Positions 50,771-64,000 of a DNA stretch of 64,000 nt are shown here, one piece after another (the first letter of the stretch is position 1; every line of letters starts with the position of its first letter). The notes below the pieces were generated by a model. It was given only the letters and a program-made list of their open reading frames with translations. It was not told where the DNA came from and made no database searches. Where the stretch lies: positions 1 to 64,000 of the forward strand of contig JAPUEK010000081.1 in NCBI GenBank assembly GCA_027492585.1, read 5' to 3'. The position numbers were made by a program, and so were the translations under genes. This stretch comes from Paracoccaceae bacterium. Lineage in GTDB: Bacteria; Pseudomonadota; Alphaproteobacteria; Rhodobacterales; Rhodobacteraceae.

Positions 50771-51513
50771 CAGAGCAGCGCCTTCACCAGACCCATCCCC
50801 GCAAGCCCCGCAAGCAGCAGGATGGCAAAGCGGCGGAAATCCTTGGGATCGGTGTTGAAGAAGTGCCGCCCGCCCAGCCAGTTGCCCAGGAAGACCAGCG
50901 GCAGACCGATCAGCCCGGCCCAGAGCGTGTCCCAGCTCACCAGCCCGTGCCACCAGTAAAGCGGCGCAGAATAGATATCGAGGATCGGGAAATAGGCGAT
51001 CAGCGTCGCCCGAAAGACCTGCGCCCGCATCGGCTGGGCGGCAAAGAAGGCCGCGACCGGCAGCCCGCCCATCCCCGGCGCATTGGCGATGCCGGAGGCG
51101 AGCCCCGCCGCAAGGTTCGCCGCCCGCCCCGCTTCGGCCCGCATCCGCCAGCCGATCAGCAGCACCCCGCACATCGCCAGCACATAGGCGGAGATCACCG
51201 CCCGCGCGGCATCCTCCGAAATCGAGGTCAGCGCCCAGAGGCCGAGCGGCAACCCCACGACCGCCCCCGCCACCAGCAGCCCGACCCGCCGCCAGTCCAC
51301 ATCCGGTCCGACGCCCTTCCAGGCTTGCAGCGTCATCACGGTTTCCCAGAGCATGACCACCGCGACGAAATTCAGCGGGCTGGTGGCCAGCCCCGAGGCC
51401 GCGATCACCAGCGCCGAAAAGCCGAAGCCCGAATAGCCGCGCACGAAGGCCGAGCCGAGAATGGCCACCGCCATCCACGCCAGCCCGACCGGCGTGAGAT
51501 CAAAGAGCGTCAT
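50770..51513 (-). CDS. TSUP (TauE/SafE) family sulfite/organosulfur exporter
   Basis: A 247-residue membrane protein with seven to eight hydrophobic segments. The N-terminus has AILGSAFVRGYSGFGFSALVIAA, the typical TSUP start with its Gly-rich repeat, and the second half repeats it at ANAPGMGGLPVAAFFAA. In taurine operons such proteins (TauE, TauZ) export sulfite or sulfate across the inner membrane. It overlaps xsc by 4 bp and ackA by one base, so it is tightly coupled with sulfoacetaldehyde breakdown. Confidence 0.87.
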   Translation of the reverse strand: MTLFDLTPVGLAWMAVAILGSAFVRGYSGFGFSALVIAASGLATSPLNFVAVVMLWETVMTLQAWKGVGPDVDWRRVGLLVAGAVVGLPLGLWALTSISEDAARAVISAYVLAMCGVLLIGWRMRAEAGRAANLAAGLASGIANAPGMGGLPVAAFFAAQPMRAQVFRATLIAYFPILDIYSAPLYWWHGLVSWDTLWAGLIGLPLVFLGNWLGGRHFFNTDPKDFRRFAILLLAGLAGMGLVKALL

Positions 51514-53282
51514 CCCCGCTGCGGCCGCATGTCGGCCTTCGAGATCCCCGCCACCGCCACCGGCTTTTTCATCGCATCGCGGCGGAAGGGCTCGCCCAGT
51601 TCCTGATTGATCATCGCCTCGATCAGCGTGGTCTTGCCGGCCTTCTGGTCCTCGATGGCCTGCCGCAGCGCCGCCGTCAGCTCCTCCATCGTGCGCGCGA
51701 TCACGCCCTGCAAGCCGCAGGCCTTTGCGATCCCGGCATAAGAGACCTGGGTATCCAGCTCCGTTCCGACGAAATTGTCGTCATACCACAGCGTCGAGTT
51801 GCGCTTTTCCGCACCCCATTGGTAGTTGCGGAAAACGACCTGCGTGATCGCGGGCCACTCGCCGCGGCCGATCGCCGTCAGTTCCGTCACCGCGATGCCG
51901 AAGGCGCCGTCGCCGGAAAAGCCCACCACCGGCACATCCGGGCAGCCGATCTTGGCGCCCACCACGGCGGGCAGACCATAGCCGCAGGGGCCGAACAGAC
52001 CCGGCGCCAGATACTTCCGCCCCGATTCGAAGGTCGGATAGGCATTGCCGATGGCGCAGTTGTTGCCGATGTCGGAGGAAATGATCGCCTCTTTCGGCAG
52101 CGCCGCCTGAATCGCCCGCCACGCCATGCGCGGCGACATCCATTCCGGCTTGTCGGCGCGCGCACGGGCGTTCCAGGTGGTGCCGGGATCGTCCTCTTCG
52201 TGATCCATGGAAGAAAGCTGCTGCGCCCAGGCCGATTTGGTCTGGGCGATCTTCGCCTTGCGTTCTACCCGCCCATGGTCACCAGCGGCAGAGGCGAGAC
52301 GCGCCAAAACCGCCTCGGCGACCTTTTTCGCATCGCCGACAATACCAACAGTCACCTTCTTGGTCAGCCCGATCCGATCCGGGTTGATGTCCACTTGGAT
52401 GATCCTGGCCTCTTTGGGCCAATAGTCCAGCGCGTATCCGGGAAGCGTTGAAAACGGGTTTAGCCGGGTACCCAGACAGAATACCACATCGGCCTGCGAA
52501 ATCAACTCCATTGCCGCCCTGGAGCCGTTGTAGCCCAGCGGCCCGGCGAAGAGCGGATGGCTGCCGGGGAAGGCATCATTGTGCTGATAGCCCACGCAGA
52601 CCGGCGCATCGAGCCGCTCGGCCAGCGCCATGGAGGCCGGGATCGCGCCCGCCAGCACCACCCCGGCGCCGTTCAGGATCACCGGGAATTTCGCGCCCGA
52701 CAGCAGATCCGCGGCTGCGGCAATCGCCTCCTCCCCGCCCGCCGGGCGCTCGAATTCCACCGGCACCGGCAGGTCGATGTCGATCACCTGCGTCCAGAAA
52801 TCGCGCGGCATGTTGATCTGCGCCGGGGCGGAGGCGCGCTTGGCGTTGATGATCACCCGGTTCAGCACCTCGGCAACGCGGGAAGGATCGCGGACCTCCT
52901 CCTGATAGGCCACCATGTCCTTGAAGAGCGCCATCTGCTCGACTTCCTGAAAGCCGCCCATGCCGATGGTCTTGTTGGCCGCCTGCGGCGTGACCAGCAG
53001 CAGCGGCGTGTGGTTCCAGTAGGCGGTCTTCACCGCCGTCACGAAATTGGTGATCCCCGGCCCGTTCTGGGCGATCATCATGCTCATCTTGCCGGAGGCG
53101 CGGGTATAGCCGTCGGCCATCATCCCGCCCGAACCTTCATGCGCGCAGTCCCAGAAGGTGATCCCCGCCCGCGGGAACAGGTCCGAGATCGGCATGAAAG
53201 CCGATCCGATGATCCCGAAGGCATGTTCGATGCCATGCAGTTGCAGGGTTTTGACAAAGGCTTCTTCGGTGGTCATCCGCAT
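51510..53282 (-). CDS. xsc: Sulfoacetaldehyde acetyltransferase
   Basis: A 590-residue TPP enzyme splitting sulfoacetaldehyde with phosphate into sulfite and acetyl phosphate. The length equals that of known Xsc. The N-terminal FVKTLQLHGIEHAFGIIGSAFMPISDLFP and DCAHEGSGGMMADGYTRASG, with the catalytic-type Glu in AHEGS, are as in Xsc. The TPP site is near VVGFSGDGAFGIAVTELTAIGRGEWP. The ATG at 53282 has GAGGAGAG 5 bp upstream. TauR-like repeats lie 65-97 bp before the start. It heads the xsc-TSUP-ackA operon. Confidence 0.96.
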   Translation of the reverse strand: MRMTTEEAFVKTLQLHGIEHAFGIIGSAFMPISDLFPRAGITFWDCAHEGSGGMMADGYTRASGKMSMMIAQNGPGITNFVTAVKTAYWNHTPLLLVTPQAANKTIGMGGFQEVEQMALFKDMVAYQEEVRDPSRVAEVLNRVIINAKRASAPAQINMPRDFWTQVIDIDLPVPVEFERPAGGEEAIAAAADLLSGAKFPVILNGAGVVLAGAIPASMALAERLDAPVCVGYQHNDAFPGSHPLFAGPLGYNGSRAAMELISQADVVFCLGTRLNPFSTLPGYALDYWPKEARIIQVDINPDRIGLTKKVTVGIVGDAKKVAEAVLARLASAAGDHGRVERKAKIAQTKSAWAQQLSSMDHEEDDPGTTWNARARADKPEWMSPRMAWRAIQAALPKEAIISSDIGNNCAIGNAYPTFESGRKYLAPGLFGPCGYGLPAVVGAKIGCPDVPVVGFSGDGAFGIAVTELTAIGRGEWPAITQVVFRNYQWGAEKRNSTLWYDDNFVGTELDTQVSYAGIAKACGLQGVIARTMEELTAALRQAIEDQKAGKTTLIEAMINQELGEPFRRDAMKKPVAVAGISKADMRPQRG

Positions 53283-53346
53283 GGCACTCTCCTCGGGCAG
53301 GCTGTTCGGCAGGCTGTGGCTTTTCTATCCTGCCGCCAAAGCCGCC

Positions 53347-53379
53347 ATAGGGCCAGACCTTCCTGCCTCATAAGTCCAG
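53347..53379 (-). promoter_or_regulatory. TauR operator pair upstream of xsc
   Basis: On the minus strand CTGGACTTAT (53379-53370) and CTGGCCCTAT (53356-53347) form a direct repeat with a 23-bp period. They match the CTGGACYTAA-type sites described for TauR in Rhodobacter. Orientation is towards xsc, consistent with activation. Confidence 0.8.
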
Positions 53380-53470
53380 TGAGAGTGTCAAAGGCAGCCC
53401 GACGGTCCGGGCGCATCCCGGCTGTCGGCCCCGAAGCGCCCCAGGCCGCACGAACGCCGGCACCGGCCCG

Positions 53471-54931
53471 TCACGCCCCGCGAATGGCCCGCCCGATCCG
53501 GGCGATGCCCTCCGGGATGCGCGCCGGCGGGATCGAGGAATAGGCGAGCCGGTAGTAGTTGCGCGGCGCGCGGGCCGGATCGAAAAAGGCCCGGCCCGGC
53601 TCGATCAGCACGCCCTCGGCGCGCAGGGCTTCGGCCAGCACTTCGGTATCCACCCCCTCCGGCGCACGCATCCAGAAGCTGGAACCGCCGAAGCCACCCT
53701 GCCCCGCCACCATCAGGCCCTGCGCCTGAATGGCCTCCTCCATCACCTGCCGCCGCCGCTTGTAGGCCGCCCGCATCCGGTTGATCAGCGCATCGTAATG
53801 GCCGAGTGACAGGAAATAGGCCACCGTCCGCTGGATATGCCCCGGCGGATGGCGCAGCATCATCAGCCGCAGCGCCCGCGCCTCGCGGATGAAGCTTGCG
53901 GGGCCGACCAGATAGCCCAGCCGCATCCCCGGAAAAACCGATTTGGAGAACGAGCCCGCATAGACCACCCGCCCCTCGCTATCGAGCGATTTCAGCGCCG
54001 GAGCCACGGGCTTGAGGAGGGACATCTCGAATTCGTAATCATCCTCGATGATGACGAAACCCTCGCGCCCCGCCGCCTCCAGCAGCGCCAGCCTGCGGTC
54101 GAGCGGCATGGTGGCATTGGTCGGGCATTGGTGGGAGGCGGTAGTGAACACCACATCCACCCCTTTCGGCAAGGCTTCCGGCGGCAGCCCGCCCTCATCG
54201 ACATCGACCGACAGCACCTCCGCGCCCGAAGCCGCGAGCAGCCCGCGCAGGCCGGTGTAGCCGGGGTTTTCCACCGCCACCCGCCGCCCCGGACCAAGCA
54301 GCACCGCCGCCGCGATCCAGAGCGCATTCTGCGCGCCCATGGTCAGCAGCACCTCCTCCGGCTCCGCCGCGATGCCCCGACGGGGCAGGATGGAGCGGAC
54401 GACATGCTCGATCAGCAAAGGGTCGTCGCGGTCGTAGTAATCTTGGGTCAGCGCCCCGAAATCCCGCCGCCCGAGCGCGCGCACCGCACAGAGCCGCCAG
54501 TTCTGGTGGTCGAACAGCGAGGGGTCGGCCTGCCCGTAGATGAAACCATAGGGATAGGCCTCCCAATCCACAGGGCGGGCCACCTGCGCGGTACTGCTGA
54601 ACCGCCCCTGCGCGAGCCGCGCGAAATCCGCCCCCTCCGCCTTCGGGGCGCGCAGGGGCAGGTCCGGCACGCGCGGCGCGTTTTCGGAAACGAAATAGCC
54701 CGAACGCCCCCGAGCGGTCAGATAATCCGAACTCACCAGCTCCGCATAGGCCAGCGTCACCGTGATCCGGCTGATGCCGAGATGCCCGGCCAGCCCGCGT
54801 GAGGAGGGCATCTTCTGCCCCTGCCGGAAGCGCCCGGCGAGGATGCCTTCCGTGACCATCTGCCGGATGCGCTGCTGCAGGCTGCCCCGCCCCGCACCGG
54901 GCAGGACGAAGGCTTCGGGAGGGATCGACAT
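53471..54931 (-). CDS. tauR: TauR, MocR-type GntR regulator of taurine genes
   Basis: A 486-residue regulator combining an N-terminal GntR winged helix (residues about 15-80, SLQQRIRQMVTEGILAGRFRQG, RGLAGHLGISRITVTLAYAEL) with a C-terminal aminotransferase-fold domain. The PLP lysine is in VVYAGSFSKSVFPGMRLGY. Such MocR proteins sense amino compounds through PLP; TauR activates taurine genes. It lies between xsc and tpa, in the tpa-tauR-xsc order known from Rhodobacter. A TauR-type repeat pair directly abuts its own start, suggesting autoregulation. The start ATG at 54931 follows no strong ribosome-binding site. Confidence 0.93.
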   Translation of the reverse strand: MSIPPEAFVLPGAGRGSLQQRIRQMVTEGILAGRFRQGQKMPSSRGLAGHLGISRITVTLAYAELVSSDYLTARGRSGYFVSENAPRVPDLPLRAPKAEGADFARLAQGRFSSTAQVARPVDWEAYPYGFIYGQADPSLFDHQNWRLCAVRALGRRDFGALTQDYYDRDDPLLIEHVVRSILPRRGIAAEPEEVLLTMGAQNALWIAAAVLLGPGRRVAVENPGYTGLRGLLAASGAEVLSVDVDEGGLPPEALPKGVDVVFTTASHQCPTNATMPLDRRLALLEAAGREGFVIIEDDYEFEMSLLKPVAPALKSLDSEGRVVYAGSFSKSVFPGMRLGYLVGPASFIREARALRLMMLRHPPGHIQRTVAYFLSLGHYDALINRMRAAYKRRRQVMEEAIQAQGLMVAGQGGFGGSSFWMRAPEGVDTEVLAEALRAEGVLIEPGRAFFDPARAPRNYYRLAYSSIPPARIPEGIARIGRAIRGA

Positions 54932-54932
54932 T

Positions 54933-54965
54933 CTGGCCTCAGACGCGAATTGCGACTGGACCTAT
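54933..54965 (+). promoter_or_regulatory. TauR-type repeat pair at the tauR start
   Basis: CTGGCCTCAG (54933-54942) and CTGGACCTAT (54956-54965) on the plus strand have the same 23-bp period as the pairs before xsc and tpa. They point away from tauR and begin 1 bp from its start codon, which would suit negative autoregulation. The first half-site is imperfect. Confidence 0.65.
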
Positions 54966-55025
54966 TGGCGCGGCGCGACCCCGGAAAGTCAATCCCGCAC
55001 CACCGCCCTGCCCCGGCCGGGGAAG

Positions 55026-55105
55026 CCTCCGGCGGGGATATTTGAGCCAGTATGAAAGGGCTTTCTTCTCTTCTCAAATATCCTCGGGGGAGGCGGAGCC
55101 GGGGG
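55026..55105. repeat. Dispersed intergenic repeat, copies 4 and 5 in head-to-head orientation
   Basis: The plus-strand copy is CCTCCGGCGGGGATATTTGA followed by GCCAGTATGAAAGGG (55026-55060), nearly identical to copy 1 at 8270-8297. Directly after it lies a minus-strand copy (55061-55105) reading GCCTCCCCCGAGGATATTTG and AGAAGAGAAGAAAG. Together they form a large inverted arrangement between tauR and tpa. Confidence 0.75.
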
Positions 55106-55165
55106 CGGAAGCCCCCCGAAGAGAGGCCTTGCCGCCGGGCCGACAGGCCCGGCGGCGCCGGTGGA

Positions 55166-56548
55166 TCAGCCGAAGACCTTGGTCAGCGCCTTGTCGATCG
55201 CCCCGGTGATCTGGTCGATGTCGTCCGGCGTTGCGATCAGCGCGGGCGACAGGCACAGCGTGTTGTTCAGCCCCGGCAGCGAGCGGTTGGTCATGCCGAT
55301 GATCACGCCCTGCGCGTTGCAATCGGCAACCACGGCGGCGACTTTCTTCTCGTCCATCGGCTCCTTGGTCTTGCGGTCCGCAACCAGTTCCGCCCCGCAG
55401 AACAGGCCCTTGCCGCGCACATCACCGATCACCTTGTGCTTTTCCATCAGCGCATTGAGGTTGTCGATCACCCGCGCGCCCATCTTGAGCGTGTTGTCGA
55501 GCAGGCCTTCGTCCTCGATGATCCGCATGTTTTCCAGCGCCGCCGCCGGCCCCGCCGTGCAGCCGCCGAAGGTGGAGATGTCGCGGAAATAGCTCATCGG
55601 ATCGCCGGCATCCTTGAACATCGAGAAGACTTCCTCGGTGGTCACGGTGCAGGAGATGGCGGCATAGCCGGAGGCCACGCCCTTGGCCATGGTCACGAAA
55701 TCCGGCTTGATGCCGTAGTGCTGATAGCCGAACCAGGTGCCGGTGCGGCCGACCCCGCAGACCACTTCATCAATATGCAGCAGGATGTTGTATTTTTTGC
55801 AGATTTCCTGCACCCGCTCCCAGTAGCCCGTGGGCGGGGTGATGACGCCGCCGCCCGCCGTCACCGGCTCCAGCACCAGCGCGCCGATGGTGTCGGGGCC
55901 TTCGCGCAGGATCACCTCCTCGATCGCATCGGCGGCGCGCTCGCCGTAATTCTCCACATCCCATTGCTTGCGGTACTCAAGGCAATGGGGGACCATAACG
56001 AAGCCGTCCGGATACGGCCCGTATTGCATCGCCCGCTCCGCCTGACCGGAGGTCGCAAGCGCGCCGATGGTGGTGCCGTGATAGTCGCGCTCGCGGTAGA
56101 GGATCTTCCATTTCTTGCCGCCATGATGCTTGTGGGCGATCTGGCGGACCATCTTGTAGACCTTCTCGTTGGCCTCCGAGCCCGAGTTGGAATAATAGAC
56201 GCGGCTCATCCCCGGCATCTTGGAGATCAGCCGTTCGGCAAAGAGCGCACCGGGGATTGACCCGCCGACGCCGGCGAAATAGTTCATCTTCAGAAGCGTG
56301 TCGCGCACCGCATTGGCGATGCTCTCGCGGCCATAGCCGACGTTCACCGTCCAGACCGCGCCGGACACCGCGTCGATGAATTCCTTGCCGCGCGCATCCC
56401 AGACCCGCAGGCCCTTGCCCTCGACGATGATGCGCGGATCGACCTCGGGGGCCTCGTAGCCCTTGTGCTGGCTCAGGTGGTGCCAGACATGCGCCTTGTC
56501 GGCGGCGACGACGGCACTGATATCATTGGCGTTTGCATAGCCTTCCAT
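55166..56548 (-). CDS. tpa: Taurine:pyruvate aminotransferase
   Basis: A 460-residue class III PLP aminotransferase converting taurine and pyruvate to sulfoacetaldehyde and alanine. Motifs include SGAVWTVNVGYGRESIANAV, YYSNSGSEANEKVYKM, YHGTTIGALATSGQ, the PLP Asp in LLHIDEVVCGVGRTG, and the Schiff-base Lys in FVTMAKGVASGYAAIS. It agrees with Tpa rather than omega-amino acid transaminases in its context with xsc and tauR. The start at 56548 has AGGTCTGGCC upstream. TauR repeats lie 90-122 bp before it. Confidence 0.95.
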   Translation of the reverse strand: MEGYANANDISAVVAADKAHVWHHLSQHKGYEAPEVDPRIIVEGKGLRVWDARGKEFIDAVSGAVWTVNVGYGRESIANAVRDTLLKMNYFAGVGGSIPGALFAERLISKMPGMSRVYYSNSGSEANEKVYKMVRQIAHKHHGGKKWKILYRERDYHGTTIGALATSGQAERAMQYGPYPDGFVMVPHCLEYRKQWDVENYGERAADAIEEVILREGPDTIGALVLEPVTAGGGVITPPTGYWERVQEICKKYNILLHIDEVVCGVGRTGTWFGYQHYGIKPDFVTMAKGVASGYAAISCTVTTEEVFSMFKDAGDPMSYFRDISTFGGCTAGPAAALENMRIIEDEGLLDNTLKMGARVIDNLNALMEKHKVIGDVRGKGLFCGAELVADRKTKEPMDEKKVAAVVADCNAQGVIIGMTNRSLPGLNNTLCLSPALIATPDDIDQITGAIDKALTKVFG

Positions 56549-56670: not shown

Positions 56671-56740
56671 CCGACGGCCTGCCGCCCTGCCCCGGCATCG
56701 GGCCGGCCTTCCGCCGGTGCCGCCCGGATGCTTGACGGAT

Positions 56741-56774
56741 TGGAACGTTCTCATTATGAAATTGGAACGTTCCA
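56741..56774 (+). promoter_or_regulatory. Duplicated palindromic operator before the Gfo/Idh/MocA gene
   Basis: TGGAACGTTCTC (56741-56752) and the perfect palindrome TGGAACGTTCCA (56763-56774) are spaced 22 bp centre to centre, two turns of DNA. Flanking bases repeat too (ATTGGAACGTTC). The central CG recalls LacI-type sites. The LacI-family gene at 61940 appears to have a different operator (TTGCAACG), so the regulator is unknown. The sites lie 21-54 bp before the start of the gene at 56795, in the promoter zone. Confidence 0.7.
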
Positions 56775-56794
56775 TAAGAATCGGGGGGAAGCGG

Positions 56795-57790
56795 ATGATC
56801 TGGGGGCTGATCGGGGCGAGCACCATCGCATCGGAGCATATGATCGGGGCTTTCCGCGCCAATGGCGGGACGGTGGCGCATGTGGTCTCGGGTTCGGCCG
56901 ATCATGCGGCGGCCTATGCCAAGTCCCATGACATTCCCGCCCATGGCACCGATCTGGCCGCGATGCTGGCCGATCCGGCGATCGGGGCGGTCTATATCTC
57001 CTCCACCAATGAAAAGCACCGGGCGCAGGCGCTTGCGGCCATTGCGGCGGGCAAGGCGGTGCTCTGCGAGAAGCCGCTCGCCATGGAGATCGCCGAAGCC
57101 GAAGAGATGGTCCGTGCCGCCGAAGCCGCCGGGGTGGTCCTTGCCACCAACCACCACCTGCGCTGCTCCGGCAGCCATCAGGCGATCCGCGATCTGATCC
57201 GCGCCGGGCAGGTCGGCAAGGTCCTGTCGATGCGGGTTCACCATGCCGTCCACCTGCCGCCGCATCTGCAGGGCTGGCGGATCAACGATGCCAGCGCGGG
57301 CGGCGGGGTCATTCCCGACATCACCGTGCATGATGCCGATACCGTCCGCTTCCTTCTGGGCGAGGAGCCGGTCGCCGTGGTCGCCATGGCGGCGGTCTCC
57401 GGTCTCGGCGAGGGGGTGGAGGATTCGGTCATGTCGGTCTGGTCGATGCCCTCCGGCGCGCAGATCATGGCGCATGAAAGCTTCACCCACCGCCATGCCG
57501 GCACCGGGATCGAGGTCCACGGCACCGAAGGGTCCATCTTCGCAAGCGGGGTGATGACGCAGCGCCCGGTGGGCGGGATCCGCCTTGTCACCGCCGCCGG
57601 GGCGGAGCCGGTCCCCTATGCGCCGCATGATCTTTACGACTACGGCGTCGCGCGTTTCGTCGATGCGGTTGCGGGCAAGGGCAGGCCCGCGGCGGATGGC
57701 CGGGACGGGCTGCGCTCCCTCGCCATCGCCCTTGCCGTCCGCGAGGCCGCCCGTACCGGCGCCCGCCAGACCATCGCCTCCGGGGTCTGA
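56795..57790 (+). CDS. Gfo/Idh/MocA-family oxidoreductase
   Basis: A 331-residue NAD(P)-dependent oxidoreductase. The Rossmann start is MIWGLIGASTIASEHMIGAF, with GxGxxx read as GASTIA, and the family motif is AVLCEKPLAMEIAEAEEMV with the catalytic Lys of EKP. The C-terminal domain has INDASAGGGVIPDITVHDADTVRFLLG, in which the His and Asp are active-site residues. The substrate could be an inositol, sugar or amino-sugar derivative. The start ATG follows GGGGGGAAG. It opens a four-gene operon; the next start is 1 bp after its stop. Confidence 0.88.
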   Translation: MIWGLIGASTIASEHMIGAFRANGGTVAHVVSGSADHAAAYAKSHDIPAHGTDLAAMLADPAIGAVYISSTNEKHRAQALAAIAAGKAVLCEKPLAMEIAEAEEMVRAAEAAGVVLATNHHLRCSGSHQAIRDLIRAGQVGKVLSMRVHHAVHLPPHLQGWRINDASAGGGVIPDITVHDADTVRFLLGEEPVAVVAMAAVSGLGEGVEDSVMSVWSMPSGAQIMAHESFTHRHAGTGIEVHGTEGSIFASGVMTQRPVGGIRLVTAAGAEPVPYAPHDLYDYGVARFVDAVAGKGRPAADGRDGLRSLAIALAVREAARTGARQTIASGV

Positions 57791-57791
57791 C

Positions 57792-59363
57792 ATGGGCAAG
57801 CTCACCTCCCCCGCCGATGCCGCCGCCCGCATCAAGGATGGCGCGGTCGTCACCGTCTCCTCCTCCTCGGCGCTCGGCTGCCCCGACAAGATGCTGGAAG
57901 CCATCGGCGCCCGCTTCCGCGCCACCGGCCATCCGAAGGGGATCACCACGATCCACCCGATCGCCGCCGGCGACATGTATGGGGTGAAGGGCGTCGATCA
58001 TGTCGCGCAGGACGGGCTTCTGGCGCGGGTGATCGGCGGCAGCTACCCCTCCGGCTCCTCCAACCTGCCGATGCCGGAAATCTGGAAGATGGTGACGGAG
58101 GACCGGATTCCGGCCTACAACGTCCCCTCCGGCATCCTCTTCGACATGCACCGCGACGTGGCCGCCCGCCGGCCCGGCGTGCTGACCAGGGTGGGGCTTG
58201 AAACCTTCGTGGACCCGATCCGCGAGGGCTGTGCGATGAACGCCAAGGGGGCTGCCGCGCCCATCGTCAACCGGGTCGAATTCGGCGGCGAAACCTGGCT
58301 CCACTTCCCCAACATCGTGCCGGATGTCTGCATCCTGCGCGCCACCACCGCCGATGAGCATGGCAACCTGACCTATGAACACGAGGGCGCCTATCTGGGC
58401 GGGCTCGATCAGGCCATCGCCACCCGCAACCACGGCGGGCTGATCATCGCGCAGGTGAAGCGGATGACGGCGCGCGGCTCCCTGCGGCCGCATGACGTGC
58501 GGGTGCCGGGGCATCTGGTGGACCTGATCGTGCTTGACCCCGACCAGAAGCAGACCACCGAAACCCCCTATGACCCGGCGATCTCTGGCGAGGTGATCCG
58601 CCCCTGGGCGAGTTTCGCCCTTGCCGAGCATGGCGTGGAAAAGGTCATCGCCCGCCGCGCGGCGATGGAACTGCGCGCCGGCCAGACCGCCAATCTCGGC
58701 TTCGGCATCTCGGCCATGGTGCCGCGGGTGCTGCTGGAGGAAGGTCAGGAGCAGGCCGTCACCTGGGCCATCGAGCAGGGTGCCGTCGGGGGGATGCCCC
58801 TGACCGGCTTTGCCTTCGGCTGCGCCTCCAATGCCGATGCCTACATGCCCTCGCCGCAGCAGTTCACCTATTTTCAGGGCGGCGGGTTCGACGTGTCCTT
58901 CCTGTCGTTCCTGGAGGTGGATACCGACGGCAATGTCAACGTCTCCAAGCTTGGCAAAAAGCCTTACCTGACGGCAGGTTGCGGCGGTTTCGTCGATATC
59001 ACCGCACAGGCCCGCAAGATCGTCTTCTCCGGCTGGTTCGAGGCGGGCGCGGAGATGGCCCTGTCCGATACCGCCCTGTCCGTCGCCAGGCCCGGCAAGT
59101 TCACCAAGATGGTCAGCGCCGTCGAGCATGTCACCTATGCCGGCCGGCGCGGACAGAGCCTTGGTCAGGATGTGCTCTACATCACCGAACGCTGCGTGAT
59201 GCGCCTCGGCCCGCAGGGCTTGCAGGCAGTGGAGATCATGCCGGGCATCGACGCGGAGCGTGACATCGTTCAGGCTTCGCAGGGGCGGGTGACCATCGCG
59301 CCGGGCGCCGGGCCGATGCCCCTGTCGCTCCTCGCTCCCGGCCCGATGGGGCTGCGGCTATGA
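57792..59363 (+). CDS. Acyl-CoA:acetate/3-ketoacid CoA-transferase (propionate CoA-transferase-like)
   Basis: A 523-residue fused alpha-beta family I CoA-transferase. The catalytic Glu328 lies in AIEQGAVGGMPL, equivalent to the ESGxxGG signature. The N-terminal half has TVSSSSALGCPDKMLEAIGARF, and RAAMELRAGQTANLGFGISAMVP begins the second half. It transfers CoA from acetyl- or another acyl-CoA to a carboxylic acid. The partner acid is unknown. It overlaps the enoyl-CoA hydratase gene by 4 bp. Confidence 0.88.
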   Translation: MGKLTSPADAAARIKDGAVVTVSSSSALGCPDKMLEAIGARFRATGHPKGITTIHPIAAGDMYGVKGVDHVAQDGLLARVIGGSYPSGSSNLPMPEIWKMVTEDRIPAYNVPSGILFDMHRDVAARRPGVLTRVGLETFVDPIREGCAMNAKGAAAPIVNRVEFGGETWLHFPNIVPDVCILRATTADEHGNLTYEHEGAYLGGLDQAIATRNHGGLIIAQVKRMTARGSLRPHDVRVPGHLVDLIVLDPDQKQTTETPYDPAISGEVIRPWASFALAEHGVEKVIARRAAMELRAGQTANLGFGISAMVPRVLLEEGQEQAVTWAIEQGAVGGMPLTGFAFGCASNADAYMPSPQQFTYFQGGGFDVSFLSFLEVDTDGNVNVSKLGKKPYLTAGCGGFVDITAQARKIVFSGWFEAGAEMALSDTALSVARPGKFTKMVSAVEHVTYAGRRGQSLGQDVLYITERCVMRLGPQGLQAVEIMPGIDAERDIVQASQGRVTIAPGAGPMPLSLLAPGPMGLRL

Positions 59364-60127
59364 GCGCCATCCACCTCACCCTCGACGGCGGCATCGCCGA
59401 GCTGCGGCTCGACAATCCGGCCAAGCTCAACTCCCTGACGCTGGCGATGCTGGCCGATCTGTCGCGCCATCTCGACACGCTCGACAGGACCCCCGGCCTG
59501 CGCGCCGTGATCCTGACCGCCGAGGGGGAGCGCGCCTTCTGCACCGGCGCCGACATCACCGCCTGGGGGGATCTGTCGCCTGCCGATTTCGCCCGCCACT
59601 GGGTGCGCGACGGCCACCGGATCTTCGACCGGCTGGCGCGGCTGCATGTGCCGACCATCGCGGCGCTGCAAGGCCCTGCCTTCGGTGGCGGGCTGGAACT
59701 GGCCTCGGCCTGCGACCTGCGGGTCATGGCCCCTGCGGCGACGCTGGCCTTGCCGGAAACCGGGGTCGGCATCGTGCCGGGCTGGTCGGGGACACAGCGC
59801 CTCGCCCGCCTGCTGCCGGAGCCGGTGGTGAAGGAGATGGCTCTCTTCAACCGCCGCCTCTCGGCTGACCGCGCCCATGCCCTCGGCTTCATCGCCGAAA
59901 TCAGCGAAACCCCGCGCGAGACCGCGTTCGGGATCGCGGCAAAGCTTCTGCCCACCTCTCCCCGCGCGGCGGAAGTGGCGAAATACATGATCCATGCCGC
60001 GCGCGGCGAAGATGCTCCGGCGATGGTCGAAGCCCTCGCCTCCGGCATGATCGCCGCCTCCGGCGACAAGGCCGAGGGCGTCGCCGCCTTCCGCGCCAAA
60101 CGCAAACCTGAATTTCCGGGGACCTGA
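59360..60127 (+). CDS. Enoyl-CoA hydratase/isomerase
   Basis: A 255-residue crotonase-fold enzyme. The oxyanion-hole segments are AFCTGADITAW and GPAFGGGLELASACDLRV, and both catalytic-type glutamates are present, in LPETGVGIVPGWSGTQRL and VKEMALFNRRL. It would hydrate or isomerise a CoA ester made by the adjacent CoA-transferase. Coupled by ATGA to the preceding gene; the next start follows after one base. Confidence 0.9.
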   Translation: MSAIHLTLDGGIAELRLDNPAKLNSLTLAMLADLSRHLDTLDRTPGLRAVILTAEGERAFCTGADITAWGDLSPADFARHWVRDGHRIFDRLARLHVPTIAALQGPAFGGGLELASACDLRVMAPAATLALPETGVGIVPGWSGTQRLARLLPEPVVKEMALFNRRLSADRAHALGFIAEISETPRETAFGIAAKLLPTSPRAAEVAKYMIHAARGEDAPAMVEALASGMIAASGDKAEGVAAFRAKRKPEFPGT

Positions 60128-60128
60128 C

Positions 60129-61646
60129 ATGACCGCCCTCACCCTGATCCCCGCCACCGGCATCGCCCTTCCGGCCGCCCCCTTCCGGGGCCGCCACCTG
60201 ATCGGCAACCACTGGGTCGACAGCGCCGAGACCTTCTCGCGCATCTCCCCCTCGCATGGGGTGGAGGTTTCCATCTCCGCCAGGGGGACCGAGGCGGAAA
60301 CCGATGCCGCCATCGCCGCCGCCCGCGAGGCTTTCGAGGCGGCAAGCTGGTCCCGCGCGCCCGCCAGGACCCGCGCAGCCTTCCTTCTGCGCGTCGCCGA
60401 TCTGATCGAGGCGAATGTGGAGCGGATCGCCCTGCTGGAGACGCTGGAATCCGGCAAGCCGATCAGCCAGTCGCGCGGCGAGGTTTCCGGGGCCGCCGAT
60501 CTCTGGCGCTATGCCGCCTCCCTCGCCCGCACCATGCATGGCGACAGCCACAACAGCCTTGGCCCCGACATGCTCGGCGTGATCCTGAAAGAGCCGATCG
60601 GCGTCGTCTCGATCATCACGCCGTGGAATTTCCCCTTCTGGATCCTGTCGCAAAAGCTGCCCTTCGCCCTCGCCGCAGGTTGCACCTGCGTCGTGAAACC
60701 CTCGGAGATGACGCCCTCCACCACCGTCATGCTGGGCGAGCTGCTGCTCGAAGCGGGTCTGCCGAAGGGCGTCGTCAACATCGTCCTCGGCTTCGGCCAG
60801 CCGGTCGGGTCGCGGATGTCCACCCATCCGCAGGTGGACATGGTGACCTTCACCGGCTCCACCGCCGTCGGCAAGACCATCACCGCCGCCGCCTCCGGCA
60901 CGCTGAAGAAGGTGGCCCTTGAGCTTGGCGGCAAGAACCCGCAGATCATCTTCCCCGATGCCGATCTCGACAGCGCCGCCGATGCCGTGACCTTCGGCGT
61001 CTATTTCAACGCGGGGGAATGCTGCAATTCCGGCAGCCGGATCATCGTGCATGAGGATGTGGCCGAGGCCCTTGTGGCGCGGGTCGTGGCGCTGTCGCGC
61101 AAGGTGGCCTTCGGCGATCCGCTGCACCCCGACACCCAGGTCGGCGCCATCATCTCCACAGATCATCAGGGCAAGATCGACGCCCATGTGCGCGCCGCCG
61201 AGGCTGCGGGGGCGAAGGTCCATCTCGGCGGCGGCGCCCTTGAGGTGCCGGGGCTGGCGGGCCAGTTCTACCAGCCCACGGTGATCTCCGGCGTGACCAG
61301 CGACATGGCCATCGCCCGGGACGAGGTTTTCGGGCCGGTCCTGTCGGTCCTGACCTTCCGCACCGCCGACGAAGCGGTGGAACTGGCCAATGCCGCCACC
61401 TACGGCCTGTCGGCCGGGATCTGGAGCGAGAACATCCACACCTGCCTCGACCTCTCCCGCCGGATCAATGCCGGGACGATCTGGACCAACACCTGGATGG
61501 ACGGCTTCCCCGAACTGACCTTCGGCGGCTTCAAGCAATCCGGCACCGGGCGCGAGATCGGGCGCTACGGCTTCGAGGAATTCCTTGAAATCAAGACCCT
61601 GACCCTGCGGATCGGCCGCAGCCGCGCCAATTGGGTGCGCGGATGA
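60129..61646 (+). CDS. NAD(P)-dependent aldehyde dehydrogenase
   Basis: A 505-residue aldehyde dehydrogenase of the betaine-aldehyde/ALDH type. The cofactor segment is ITPWNFPFWILSQKLPFALAAGCTCVVKPSE, the general base is in LELGGKNPQIIF, and the nucleophilic Cys is in FNAGECCNSGSR (about residues 295-306). The C-terminal FGGFKQSGTGREIGRYGFEEFLEIKTLTL is normal. It ends the four-gene operon. The aldehyde cannot be named; it might be the product of the oxidoreductase encoded first in the operon. Confidence 0.9.
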   Translation: MTALTLIPATGIALPAAPFRGRHLIGNHWVDSAETFSRISPSHGVEVSISARGTEAETDAAIAAAREAFEAASWSRAPARTRAAFLLRVADLIEANVERIALLETLESGKPISQSRGEVSGAADLWRYAASLARTMHGDSHNSLGPDMLGVILKEPIGVVSIITPWNFPFWILSQKLPFALAAGCTCVVKPSEMTPSTTVMLGELLLEAGLPKGVVNIVLGFGQPVGSRMSTHPQVDMVTFTGSTAVGKTITAAASGTLKKVALELGGKNPQIIFPDADLDSAADAVTFGVYFNAGECCNSGSRIIVHEDVAEALVARVVALSRKVAFGDPLHPDTQVGAIISTDHQGKIDAHVRAAEAAGAKVHLGGGALEVPGLAGQFYQPTVISGVTSDMAIARDEVFGPVLSVLTFRTADEAVELANAATYGLSAGIWSENIHTCLDLSRRINAGTIWTNTWMDGFPELTFGGFKQSGTGREIGRYGFEEFLEIKTLTLRIGRSRANWVRG

Positions 61647-61869: not shown

Positions 61870-61896
61870 CGATCTTCCACCGGAAGATCGTCTTTT
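61870..61896 (+). terminator. Intrinsic terminator candidate after the aldehyde dehydrogenase operon
   Basis: A 9-bp stem CGATCTTCC (61870-61878) and GGAAGATCG (61882-61890) with a 3-base loop is followed by TCTTTT. The rest of the 61647-61939 gap holds no gene. It has a second stem CACCTGCCC/GGGCAGGTG (61763-61771 and 61778-61786) and several shorter palindromes such as CTCCATGGAG. The terminator is 220 bp past the stop, so it may serve a longer 3' end. Confidence 0.6.
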
Positions 61897-61939: not shown

Positions 61940-63049
61940 CTACAGAAACTCCAGCTTCGGGGAATGGAGAACCTGCAGATCCCCCGTCGCCTCTCCGGTC
62001 ATGGAGCGCAAAAGCACCTCGCCCATGCTGCGCCCGGCGGCCCAGAGATCCTCGAACACCGTGTCGATGGAGGGCCGCAGCAGATCGAAGATGCTCGACG
62101 CCCGCTTTGCCACCACATCAAGGTCGGTGCCGAGCTGCAGGCCGCTGTCGGTGATGGCGGCCAGAGTGCCGATGGCCGACACCTCGCCCACGCAGACGAT
62201 GCCGTCCGGCCGGTCGCCTTCGGCAAACCGGCGCTTCAGCCAGGCGACGGTCTCGGCCGGCGGAATGTCGAGATGCACGTCGCCGGGCAGCTCATAGCGG
62301 ATGCCGGCCTCGCGCGCCGCCGAGACCACGCCATGACGAAGATGCTGCGCGAAGGAATAGCGCGCATCGGGCAGCACCATCATCACATGCCTGCGGCCCT
62401 TTTCGACCAGCCGCTTCACCGCGGCGCGGGCGAAGGCCTCATTGTCGAAATCGACGAAGGGATGCGGCGCCGTGAGCTCGGTCCGGCCATGGCAGGCGAA
62501 GGGAAACCCCTGCTCGGTCAGATAGCGCACGCGGCTGTCGAAGGGCTCGGTCCGGTTGAAGATGATCCCGTCGCCCAGCCGGTTCTGCACGATCTGCATG
62601 ACCGAGCCGAGACGGTCGGACTGCAAGACATCCGGAAAGATCGTCACGGAATAGCCGGTGCCGGCCAGGGCCTCCGAAATGCCGCCGATCAGGTCATGGG
62701 TGAAGCCGAGGAATTCGTGGTCGAGGTTCAGCATGAGCTGCACGACCTTGGTGCGCCCGGTCCGCAGGCGCTGCGCGGCGCGGTCGGGAACATAGCCCTG
62801 CTGGCGGGCCGCCTCGGCGACGATGGCGCGGGTCGTGGCGGCGATGCGCGGGTCGTTGGCCAGTGCGCGGGACACCGTGGTCACCGCAAGCCCGGTGGCC
62901 GCCGCGATGCTTCGCAGCGTGGCCTTCTGGCGCGGCGGCGCGGAAAGCGTGGTCTGGGTCAGGATCGGCGCTCCAGGGGCAACGGGTTGGCGAAAGGGCT
63001 GAACCGGGACTATGCCACGAAGATGCAACGATACAACAAGAATCCGCAA
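61940..63049 (-). CDS. LacI-family transcriptional regulator
   Basis: A regulator with an N-terminal LacI helix-turn-helix (ATLRSIAAATGLAVTTVSRALANDPRI) and a hinge (YVPDRAAQRLRTGRT). A sugar-binding periplasmic-fold domain follows. The upstream boundary is uncertain. The coordinate given is the longest frame, from a TTG at 63049 with no ribosome-binding site. A TTG at 63028 lies inside an operator-like sequence. A CTG at 62962 has GGAG 8 bp upstream and would put the HTH close to the N-terminus, as usual for the family. It is divergent from the sugar-binding protein gene at 63198 and probably controls it. Confidence 0.88.
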   Translation of the reverse strand: MRILVVSLHLRGIVPVQPFRQPVAPGAPILTQTTLSAPPRQKATLRSIAAATGLAVTTVSRALANDPRIAATTRAIVAEAARQQGYVPDRAAQRLRTGRTKVVQLMLNLDHEFLGFTHDLIGGISEALAGTGYSVTIFPDVLQSDRLGSVMQIVQNRLGDGIIFNRTEPFDSRVRYLTEQGFPFACHGRTELTAPHPFVDFDNEAFARAAVKRLVEKGRRHVMMVLPDARYSFAQHLRHGVVSAAREAGIRYELPGDVHLDIPPAETVAWLKRRFAEGDRPDGIVCVGEVSAIGTLAAITDSGLQLGTDLDVVAKRASSIFDLLRPSIDTVFEDLWAAGRSMGEVLLRSMTGEATGDLQVLHSPKLEFL

Positions 63050-63156
63050 GGCCTGAAGACCGGGAGGGTGGATCGGCCGGATCAGGGATTTGCAACGTCA
63101 CATAGGTCAGAATTGCAAGAATCGTGTTGACCAATTAGCTGTTGCAACGTTTCAAT
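63023..63156. promoter_or_regulatory. LacI-type operator sites and promoter before the sugar-binding protein gene
   Basis: Three related sites share TGCAACG: ATGCAACGATACAA (63023-63036), TTGCAACGTCACAT (63090-63103) and TTGCAACGTTTCAA (63142-63155). The last is the most palindromic. It overlaps the -10 candidate TTCAAT (63151-63156), which lies 18 bp after TTGACC (63127-63132). The first lies at the 5' end of the regulator gene. Repression by the neighbouring LacI protein, relieved by sugar, is the likely scheme. Confidence 0.6.
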
Positions 63157-63197: not shown

Positions 63198-64000
63198 ATG
63201 AAGATGATGAAGGGTTTCGCTTCGGCCATGGCGCTGACCGTCGGCCTGACCGCCGCCGCGCAGGCCGCGGATGTGGAGGTCCTGCACTGGTGGACCTCGG
63301 GCGGTGAGGCCGCAGCACTCAACGTTCTGAAGGAAGACCTCAAGGCCAAGGGCATCGGCTGGCTCGACATGCCGGTCGCAGGGGGCGGCGGCGAAGCCGC
63401 AATGACCGCCCTGCGCGCCCGCGTCACCGCCGGCAACCCGCCGACCGCCGTGCAGATGCTCGGCTTCGACATCCAGGACTGGGCCAAGGAAGGTGCGCTC
63501 GGCAACCTCGACGCCACCGCCGCCACCGAAGGCTGGGATGCCGTGGTGCCGCCCGCCCTGCAGGCCTTCTCCAAATATGACGGCCACTGGATCGCGGCGC
63601 CGGTGAACGTCCATTCGACCAACTGGGTCTGGATCTCCAAAGCCGCCCTCGACGCGGCCGGCGGCAAGGTTCCGGAAACCTGGGACGAGCTGGTCACCGT
63701 TCTCGACGCGATGAAAGCCAATGGCATCACCCCGCTCGCCCATGGCGGCCAGCCCTGGCAGGATGCGACCATCTTCGACGCGGTGGTCCTGAGCCTCGGC
63801 GCCGATTTCTACAAATCGGCGATGATCGACCTCGACCCCGCAGCCCTCGGCGGCGACAAGATGGCCGAAGCCTTCGACCGCATGACCAAACTGCGCTCCT
63901 ATGTCGATGACAACTTCTCGGGCCGCGACTGGAACCTCGCTTCCGCCATGGTGATCAATGGCGAAGCCGGGATGCAGATGATGGGGGACTGGGCGAAGGG
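63198..64000 (+). CDS. Sugar ABC transporter substrate-binding protein, family 1 (partial)
   Basis: The first 267 residues of a periplasmic sugar-binding protein; the gene runs past the right edge. The signal peptide is [23 protein letters not shown]. The mature start [24 protein letters not shown] is typical of carbohydrate-binding family 1 proteins, and [22 protein letters not shown] follows. The AACAATG start at 63198 has GGGAGG upstream. The adjacent LacI regulator supports a sugar ligand. Permease genes would be expected just outside the window. Confidence 0.92.

Follow-up and report, generated by a model that had tools for sequence, protein, structure and literature searches.

A conserved, probably LacI-controlled catabolic cluster around a 1,5-anhydro-D-fructose reductase ortholog in a Paracoccaceae bacterium

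Gene content and conservation of the cluster

The subject of this study is a catabolic operon near the right end of a 64,000-nucleotide stretch of DNA (hereafter, the window) from a Paracoccaceae bacterium (assembly GCA_027492585.1, contig JAPUEK010000081.1, positions 1 to 64,000; contig C81 below). Four genes lie on the forward strand. The ATG at 56795, preceded by GGGGGGAAG, is the start of a gene for a Gfo/Idh/MocA oxidoreductase (56795–57790), which is followed by genes for a fused class I CoA-transferase of the YdiF/FadX type (57792–59363, after a 1-bp gap), a crotonase-family enoyl-CoA hydratase (59360–60127, with a 4-bp ATGA overlap), and an aldehyde dehydrogenase (ALDH; 60129–61646, after a 1-bp gap). 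The four families and their tight packing over 56795–61646, as given in the initial annotation, agree with the Pfam assignments. The operon that it described is real but not complete, because an importer, two GMC oxidoreductases, an SDR, a DUF993 protein, a second LacI-type regulator, and a glycerate kinase come after it.

The four-gene operon is the front of a longer conserved catabolic cluster that runs on past the window on the same contig. It is followed by a convergent gene for a LacI-family regulator (61940–63049, reverse strand; its start is uncertain, and the TTG at 63049 gives the longest reading) and by the gene for the sugar-binding protein (SBP) of an ABC importer on the forward strand, which starts at 63198 within the window and ends at contig position 64448. 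Outside the window, contig C81 carries the ABC permeases (64570–65463 and 65463–66344), the ABC ATPase (66465–67577), the oxidoreductase GMC1 (67574–69061), the SDR (69058–69816), GMC2 (69825–71411), DUF993 (71430–72593), the regulator LacI2 (72625–73704), and the glycerate kinase (start near 73775, end 75037).

The first enzyme, previously left as an unplaced Gfo/Idh/MocA protein, belongs to the characterized family of 1,5-anhydro-D-fructose reductase (AFR). In a comparison with Protein Data Bank (PDB) sequences, the AFR structures 2glx (7e-103, 347 bits) and 4koa (1e-99, 337 bits) were the best matches, and the next family followed at 2e-27 (99.5 bits). The window protein shares 52.4% identity over 330 amino acids with the AFR of Sinorhizobium meliloti. 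The motifs EKPLAM and DITVHDAD are identical in its alignments with the AFR structures, and we take the Lys of EKP and the D/H pair to be the AFR active-site residues. In S. meliloti, the gene order is LacI-AFR-CoA-transferase-crotonase-ALDH-ABC-GMC1-SDR-GMC2-glycerate kinase, with DUF993 divergent. The AFR of this cluster equals the 4koa protein except for one residue, and 4koa is presumably from S. meliloti, in agreement with this match; a known AFR is therefore encoded in the same gene set. The first gene of the window is an AFR ortholog, and NADPH-dependent reduction of 1,5-anhydrofructose (AF) to 1,5-anhydromannitol (AM) is predicted for its product.

Glu328 of the CoA-transferase, presumably the catalytic glutamate, is invariant (45/45), as are both E113 and E133 of the crotonase (44/44), which we take to be its catalytic glutamates. 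The SBP is closest to 4r2b (2e-196), which to judge from its title presumably has glucose bound, then to the ABC sugar-binding proteins 5dvf and 8hqq; the glucose-binding protein 2b3b was matched at 6e-36. At several loci (L041, L045, L064, L069, L118, and others), a second SBP match with 48–49% identity was seen between the second permease and ATPase genes, suggesting that the binding protein may have undergone duplication. The predicted model of GMC1 (pLDDT 90) matches the structures of FAD glucose dehydrogenase, fructose dehydrogenase, and pyranose 2-oxidase (Z scores from 39 to 32), followed by cholesterol and C-glycoside oxidases. GMC2 is nearest to a chloramphenicol-inactivating oxidoreductase, choline dehydrogenase, and alcohol oxidases, most of which are enzyme types that oxidize primary alcohols.

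DUF993 (PF06187) has one solved relative of unknown function, 4dnh (SMc04132). In two structure comparisons with the DUF993 model, N-acetylneuraminate lyases (NAL) and dihydrodipicolinate synthase (DHDPS) came next after 4dnh. A profile alignment with DHDPS (hhalign) was weak, with an E-value of 0.015 and a probability of 2.9%; in it, Lys229 of the GIKxS motif, invariant in 29/29, pairs with the lysine of the DHDPS motif GVK. Database records name DUF993 members "dihydrodipicolinate synthase family protein", and no paper in the open-access collection searched mentions DUF993. Its modeled fold suggests that DUF993 belongs to the class I pyruvate aldolases within the DHDPS/NAL superfamily.

Conservation of the gene set was analyzed at two levels. 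CoA-transferase matches were found in 89/295 genomes of the family (E-value 1e-80), in identity bands of about 73–88%, 54–59%, and about 40%. In addition, 80 named loci were taken as the best 80 of 558 CoA-transferase matches, a choice that is biased toward orthologs; at least four of them are on the same contigs as loci with G handles. The adjacency counts take in only loci with enough flank. At the named loci, the crotonase gene directly follows the CoA-transferase gene in 79/79, the AFR gene precedes it in 62/77, and ALDH comes after it in 67/74, SBP in 63/70, and GMC1 in 63/67. The corresponding values for the 30 family-genome loci are 30/30 (crotonase), 19/29 (AFR), 24/30 (ALDH), 24/30 (SBP), and 27/29 (GMC1). 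In the 54–59% band (10 loci), only crotonase comes after the CoA-transferase (9/10). Scattering of the four genes in relatives had been set beforehand as a sign against the operon; as these counts show, the genes stay together, and chance proximity was rejected as an explanation. The gene caller missed genes at two loci (L058 and L075) that tblastn shows. The named hosts are mostly Rhodobacteraceae but also include Rhizobium, Roseibium, Amaricoccus, and Oricola, and matches on plasmids extend the list to Sinorhizobium, Peteryoungia, and Microvirga, in which the gene order is largely preserved.

A sister cluster with a CoA-transferase of 54–60% identity was seen on S. meliloti pSymA (L172 and L179), in Sagittula (L175), in Rhizobium 32-5/1 (L177), and at nine loci of L070–L079. 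It usually has the crotonase, SDR, DUF993, GMC2, and ALDH, and sometimes the glycerate kinase. In place of AFR and GMC1, it carries an acyl-CoA dehydrogenase, aldo-keto reductases, a zinc alcohol dehydrogenase (MDR), and a sugar-isomerase-like protein. It probably represents a related pathway for another sugar.

Tandem operator and candidate repressor

The operon had been described as lying behind a duplicated palindromic operator. Two copies 22 bp apart are indeed present, but only the right one is perfect. The left copy, TTGGAACGTTCTCA, at 56740–56753 has two mismatches to TTGGAACGTTCCAA, and the right copy, TTGGAACGTTCCAT, at 56762–56775 has one mismatch to the 14-bp consensus and ends 19 bp before the AFR start codon. 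Within the latter, TGGAACGTTCCA at 56763–56774 is an exact 12-bp palindrome, from which the left 12-mer TGGAACGTTCTC at 56741–56752 differs at two positions. The two copies thus form a direct repeat of ATTGGAACGTTC at a spacing of 22 bp, and just one of them is a full palindrome.

Matches to the motif at up to two mismatches are not more frequent in the window than chance would allow (3 against 1.72 expected). We hold the operator to be real because it is conserved upstream of the related operons that begin with AFR, not from this count. The upstream regions of 110 loci were collected; after removal of two with short upstream regions and four duplicates, 104 remained, including 73 distinct AFR-first regions whose first genes are 56–100% identical to that of the window. 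A TTGGAACGTTCCAA site with up to two mismatches is present in 71/73 AFR-first regions and in none of 20 rounds of dinucleotide shuffling, although the compared loci are related and hence not independent. Two sites at up to three mismatches were found in 60/73 (none in the 20 shuffle rounds), and one site at this threshold in 72/73 (shuffles: mean 1.25, largest 5). The commonest site spacings over all 104 regions are 21 bp (26 pairs) and 22 bp (21 pairs). Twelve of the 104 regions have no site at up to three mismatches, and 11 of these 12 begin with the CoA-transferase. A site at up to two mismatches occurs in 18/31 of the CoA-transferase-first regions, perhaps because the operon start lies further upstream there. 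The specific operator proposed in front of the operon is therefore borne out by its conservation. A scan for co-regulated genes, which the initial annotation had suggested, made no further regulon evident in this genome: TGGAACGTTCCA at up to one mismatch occurs at 7 places against 4 for a control pattern, and TTGGAACGWTCCAA at up to two mismatches gave 9 forward matches against 6. The sole 14-mer match at up to one mismatch outside the operon is inside the GMC1 coding sequence (C81:68747). The remaining places in the genome are not in excess of the control, and we therefore propose no additional target.

The regulator, for which no name had been offered, now has a candidate. The cluster holds two LacI-type repressor genes, for the convergent LacI and for LacI2. 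The LacI of the S. meliloti cluster is 41% identical to LacI2 and 27% identical to the convergent LacI, and a perfect TTGGAACGTTCCAA is located before lacI-AFR in that cluster. LacI2 is present in 31/32 clade-1 loci that were followed far enough downstream (counted by eye) and missing in one (L059). In the window, the spacer between the convergent lacI and SBP genes contains an operator-like site, ATGCAACGATACAA, on its lacI side (63023–63036) and a second operator type, TTGCAACGTTTCAA, before the SBP gene (63142–63155). This second motif, TTGnAACGTTnCAA, is found before SBP at up to two mismatches in 29/29 loci with the convergent lacI and in 0/60 loci lacking it (56 distinct sequences). The tandem motif, on the other hand, is kept both with and without the convergent lacI. 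Because the two motifs track the two LacI genes, and because of the LacI2-type regulator in S. meliloti and the presence of LacI2 in nearly all extended loci, the tandem operator likely belongs to LacI2 and the TTGnAACGTTnCAA-type operator to the convergent LacI.

Control of the TGGAACGTTCCA operator by the convergent LacI (61940–63049) instead of LacI2 is quite improbable. In its favor, this LacI is the closest regulator, its own TTGnAACGTTnCAA sites resemble the tandem operator, and the loci that carry it have a tandem-type site before the first gene in 26/29 and before SBP in 6/29 cases (up to two mismatches). The persistence of the tandem site in loci that lack this regulator, together with the strict association of the latter with its own motif, the regulator type in S. 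meliloti, and the near-constant presence of LacI2, argues for LacI2 instead.

Judged from gene order, SMc04401 of S. meliloti is the regulator of LacI2 type in the syntenic cluster and is preceded by the perfect TTGGAACGTTCCAA. A published list of regulators includes it, with a mean size of 4.04 genes for its predicted regulon (PMC4560400). The present genome differs in two respects: the LacI2 gene comes late in the second transcription unit, and there is an additional, convergent LacI that has a motif of its own. A terminator-like hairpin lies between the ALDH and convergent lacI genes (61870–61890, forward strand), although the number of such sites is not above that in shuffled sequence; a scan for promoters and terminators gave counts at or below shuffles.

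Proposed route and alternative explanations

The enzyme set suggests an oxidized sugar-like substrate, an aldehyde step, and CoA activation of an acid, as first thought from the four genes; we, too, know of no standard pathway with this gene set. Here, we tentatively propose, with somewhat less than even confidence, that a cluster repressed by LacI2 begins with this operon as its first transcription unit and serves the aerobic catabolism of a glucose-like 1,5-anhydrohexitol. The candidate substrates are 1,5-anhydroglucitol (1,5-AG), AF, and AM, and both the substrate and the chemistry are deduced from the genes.

LacI2 would occupy the tandem operator and come off it in the presence of the sugar or of an intermediate, and the ABC importer would take the sugar in. 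GMC1 would oxidize C2, converting the glucitol to the fructose form, and AFR would reduce the product to the manno form, resulting in inversion at C2. The C6 hydroxy group would then be oxidized to the acid by GMC2 and ALDH, and the CoA-transferase would form the CoA ester of this acid. Crotonases eliminate with syn stereochemistry, and the crotonase would remove the C4 hydroxy group and H-5, which are cis to each other, in a syn elimination. Water would open the resulting cyclic enol ether to give 2-keto-3-deoxy-D-gluconate (KDG), and the CoA-transferase would pass CoA from the product to the next acid. Finally, DUF993 may cut KDG into pyruvate and glyceraldehyde, and the glycerate kinase would dispose of this triose. 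Other genomes would use a flavoprotein module, which often includes a KDG-kinase-like enzyme, in place of DUF993. According to our stereochemical working, 1,5-anhydro-D-mannitol that is oxidized at C6, dehydrated at C4–C5, and ring-opened is exactly KDG; 1,5-AG without inversion at C2 would yield the L-threo isomer instead. The need for C2 inversion to reach the stereochemistry of KDG would give a reason for the presence of GMC1 and AFR at the head of the route. That the whole sequence of C2 inversion, C6 oxidation, CoA loading, crotonase dehydration, hydrolysis to KDG, and CoA recycling opens the sugar ring, and that it is the missing aerobic 1,5-AG pathway, is a doubtful proposition in its entirety.

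The downstream part of the cluster is consistent with such an intermediate. The downstream stretch was added for 36/40 loci (not L044, L047, L061, and L075). Of the 32 clade-1 loci followed downstream, 16 have DUF993, 14 have an SdhA-like flavoprotein, none has both, and two have neither (Fisher p = 5e-7, indicative only, as the loci are related). The DUF993 loci have AFR and SDR in 16/16 each and the glycerate kinase in 9/16. At the flavoprotein loci, a second Gfo protein (12/14) and a KDG-kinase-like protein (8/14) are common, AFR (5/14) and SDR (1/14) are less so, and the glycerate kinase was not seen (0/14). The SdhA/FrdA-like flavoprotein of about 690 amino acids (670 in some relatives) is encoded beside the Gfo/Idh/MocA and KDG-kinase-like genes in clusters both with and without AFR (for example, L041, L042, L082, L083, and L178), and no iron-sulfur partner was noticed next to it at those loci. 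The 670-residue neighbor had been considered as a carboxylase, which was rejected because it is this flavoprotein. The kinase of the module is nearest to KDG kinase (8.5e-74 in the PDB comparison; 248 bits to NCBIfam KdgK, the next family at 119), and the second Gfo protein is nearest, among relatives with a named function, to scyllo-inositol/L-glucose dehydrogenase. A shared intermediate of the 2-keto-3-deoxyhexonate type would explain the swap as aldol cleavage in one case and phosphorylation in the other, which supports the proposed route but does not prove it.

Several points weigh against the anhydrohexitol proposal. As cited in a review, Kuhn et al. (2006) concluded that AM is converted to mannose by hydroxylation at C1 (PMC12441222), and such a route needs no CoA step. 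AFR is missing from 9/14 flavoprotein loci. A whole-genome search of those nine genomes and that of L054 found no AFR, the best relatives being 32–38% identical in 5/10; because none of the 10 genomes has it, AFR is not essential to the cluster. The proposed route names no dedicated ring-opening enzyme. SMc04396, the S. meliloti SBP by gene order, is reported to be induced by dextrin (PMC4960864); the SMc numbers were placed by gene order relative to SMc04390–04392 and leuB SMc04405 (PMC12542648), which puts the cluster at about SMc04389–04402. The DUF993 model has a mean pLDDT of 54.7 and was built from two sequences. The 248 bits of the module kinase are below the NCBIfam KdgK cut-off of 400, and it is not filed as a member. 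No KDG-kinase-like gene was seen at 6/14 flavoprotein loci, some of which are in stretches that end close by. In Rhizobium CCGE531, the kinase gene is followed by one annotated as fructose bisphosphate aldolase, which suits KDG less well. Roles for the SDR, a Dabb protein, the SdhA-like flavoprotein, and the second Gfo protein are not explained by the proposed route.

The strongest alternative, which we regard as quite possible, is another glucose-like pyranose substrate (glucose, an osone, a glucoside, or a rare sugar), in which case GMC1 would form 2-keto-aldoses as substrates of AFR, and the derived acid would be handled by the CoA module. AFR is said to reduce osones too, as the abstract of Kuhn 2006 reportedly states. 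The neighborhood of the SBP among sugar- and glucose-binding proteins, the sister cluster that keeps the SDR, DUF993, and usually the crotonase in the absence of AFR and GMC1, and the flavoprotein loci without AFR all fit this explanation. It is opposed by the constant presence of AFR at the DUF993-type clade-1 loci and by the reported use of AF by rhizobia via AFR, as described in the review (PMC12441222). If another pyranose is the substrate, the architecture and regulation of the cluster stand, and the substrate alone changes.

A published proposal, cited in the same review, is that AFR is followed by a P450-like enzyme that hydroxylates AM at C1 to give mannose (PMC12441222); the CoA-transferase, crotonase, and ALDH would then serve merely a neighboring pathway. 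P450 matches were present in 19/19 AFR-bearing genomes searched, and in one (G010, contig C1, about 695496–696050) the match is about 13 kb from the CoA-transferase gene. The other 18/19 genomes have no P450 match closer than 30 kb to the CoA-transferase gene, and none was seen among the assigned cluster genes. The unbroken adjacency of CoA-transferase and crotonase, that of AFR and CoA-transferase in 62/77, and the 1-bp gaps and single operator in the window favor one pathway, so that this separation of AFR from the CoA module is improbable.

Inositol catabolism was rejected because the window protein is far closer to AFR than to inositol dehydrogenase in the PDB comparison, and fatty-acid or branched-chain catabolism because no thiolase, acyl-CoA synthetase, or carboxylase is found among the assigned genes of the window's cluster.

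Neighboring genes and relation to known systems

Taurine dissimilation genes are located upstream on the reverse strand (51510–56548), divergent from the operon; they encode a sulfoacetaldehyde acetyltransferase (xsc, NCBIfam equivalog), a TauR-like regulator of the GntR/aminotransferase type, and a Tpa-like aminotransferase. This neighborhood recurs in close relatives (L040 and L081, on one contig, and partly L080), and the taurine genes seem to belong to another system. On the 3' side of the cluster (contig C81, about 76480–83365; L009, 2480–9365), open reading frames read by eye include a fused 2-oxoacid dehydrogenase E1-like protein, an HpaB-like flavin monooxygenase, and a Rieske-type oxygenase.

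Among the closest known systems is the AF catabolism of Rhizobiaceae with the Sinorhizobium AFR (2glx and 4koa), to which the first gene is orthologous and whose S. meliloti gene order is nearly the same. Section 5.1 of the review describes reduction of AF to AM by an AFR-type enzyme in Rhizobiaceae and gives the following enzyme as unidentified (PMC12441222). The published route proceeds via this P450-like enzyme to mannose, whereas the window cluster has a CoA module and no P450 was seen in it. Among the anhydro-sugar matches listed from the open-access literature, by titles and opening lines, there was no paper describing such a cluster, and in the open-access collection searched no single paper combined four or more of six terms for the cluster. 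The anaerobic 1,5-AG/AM pathway of gut bacteria shares the presumed substrates but uses a phosphotransferase system (PTS) and the glycyl radical enzymes YbiW/PflD (PMC12441222). In contrast, the window cluster is oxidative, with FAD and NAD enzymes and CoA, and neither a PTS nor a glycyl radical enzyme was found in the Pfam and NCBIfam assignments of the scanned cluster genes, the rest of the genome not being searched.

In unsaturated uronate catabolism, a branch of the Entner–Doudoroff pathway, a 4,5-unsaturated ring acid is converted to KDG, which then enters a kinase or aldolase step. The proposed route would resemble it in these intermediates but would reach them by crotonase dehydration of a CoA thioester, not by a polysaccharide lyase and an unsaturated-uronyl hydrolase. 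The FadX/YdiF-type CoA-transferase and the enoyl-CoA hydratase belong to the same protein families as those of fatty acid β-oxidation; here, they are tied to a sugar importer and sugar oxidoreductases, and the assigned genes of the window's cluster include neither a thiolase nor an acyl-CoA synthetase.

We conclude that this conserved, probably LacI-controlled catabolic cluster is centered on an enzyme known from anhydrosugar metabolism and would run a CoA-dependent route as yet unassigned. As of a 2025 review, an oxidative pathway for 1,5-AG had not been described (PMC12441222). 1,5-AG gives rise to the metabolite that underlies neutropenia in GSD1b and G6PC3 deficiency, and lowering it with a probiotic would need an enzyme that acts on 1,5-AG in air, as stated in the same review (PMC12441222). 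If the cluster is the missing 1,5-AG pathway, the present analysis names its candidate genes, importer, and repressor in laboratory strains, and CoA-dependent ring opening would represent a novel entry of a cyclic sugar alcohol into the KDG branch.

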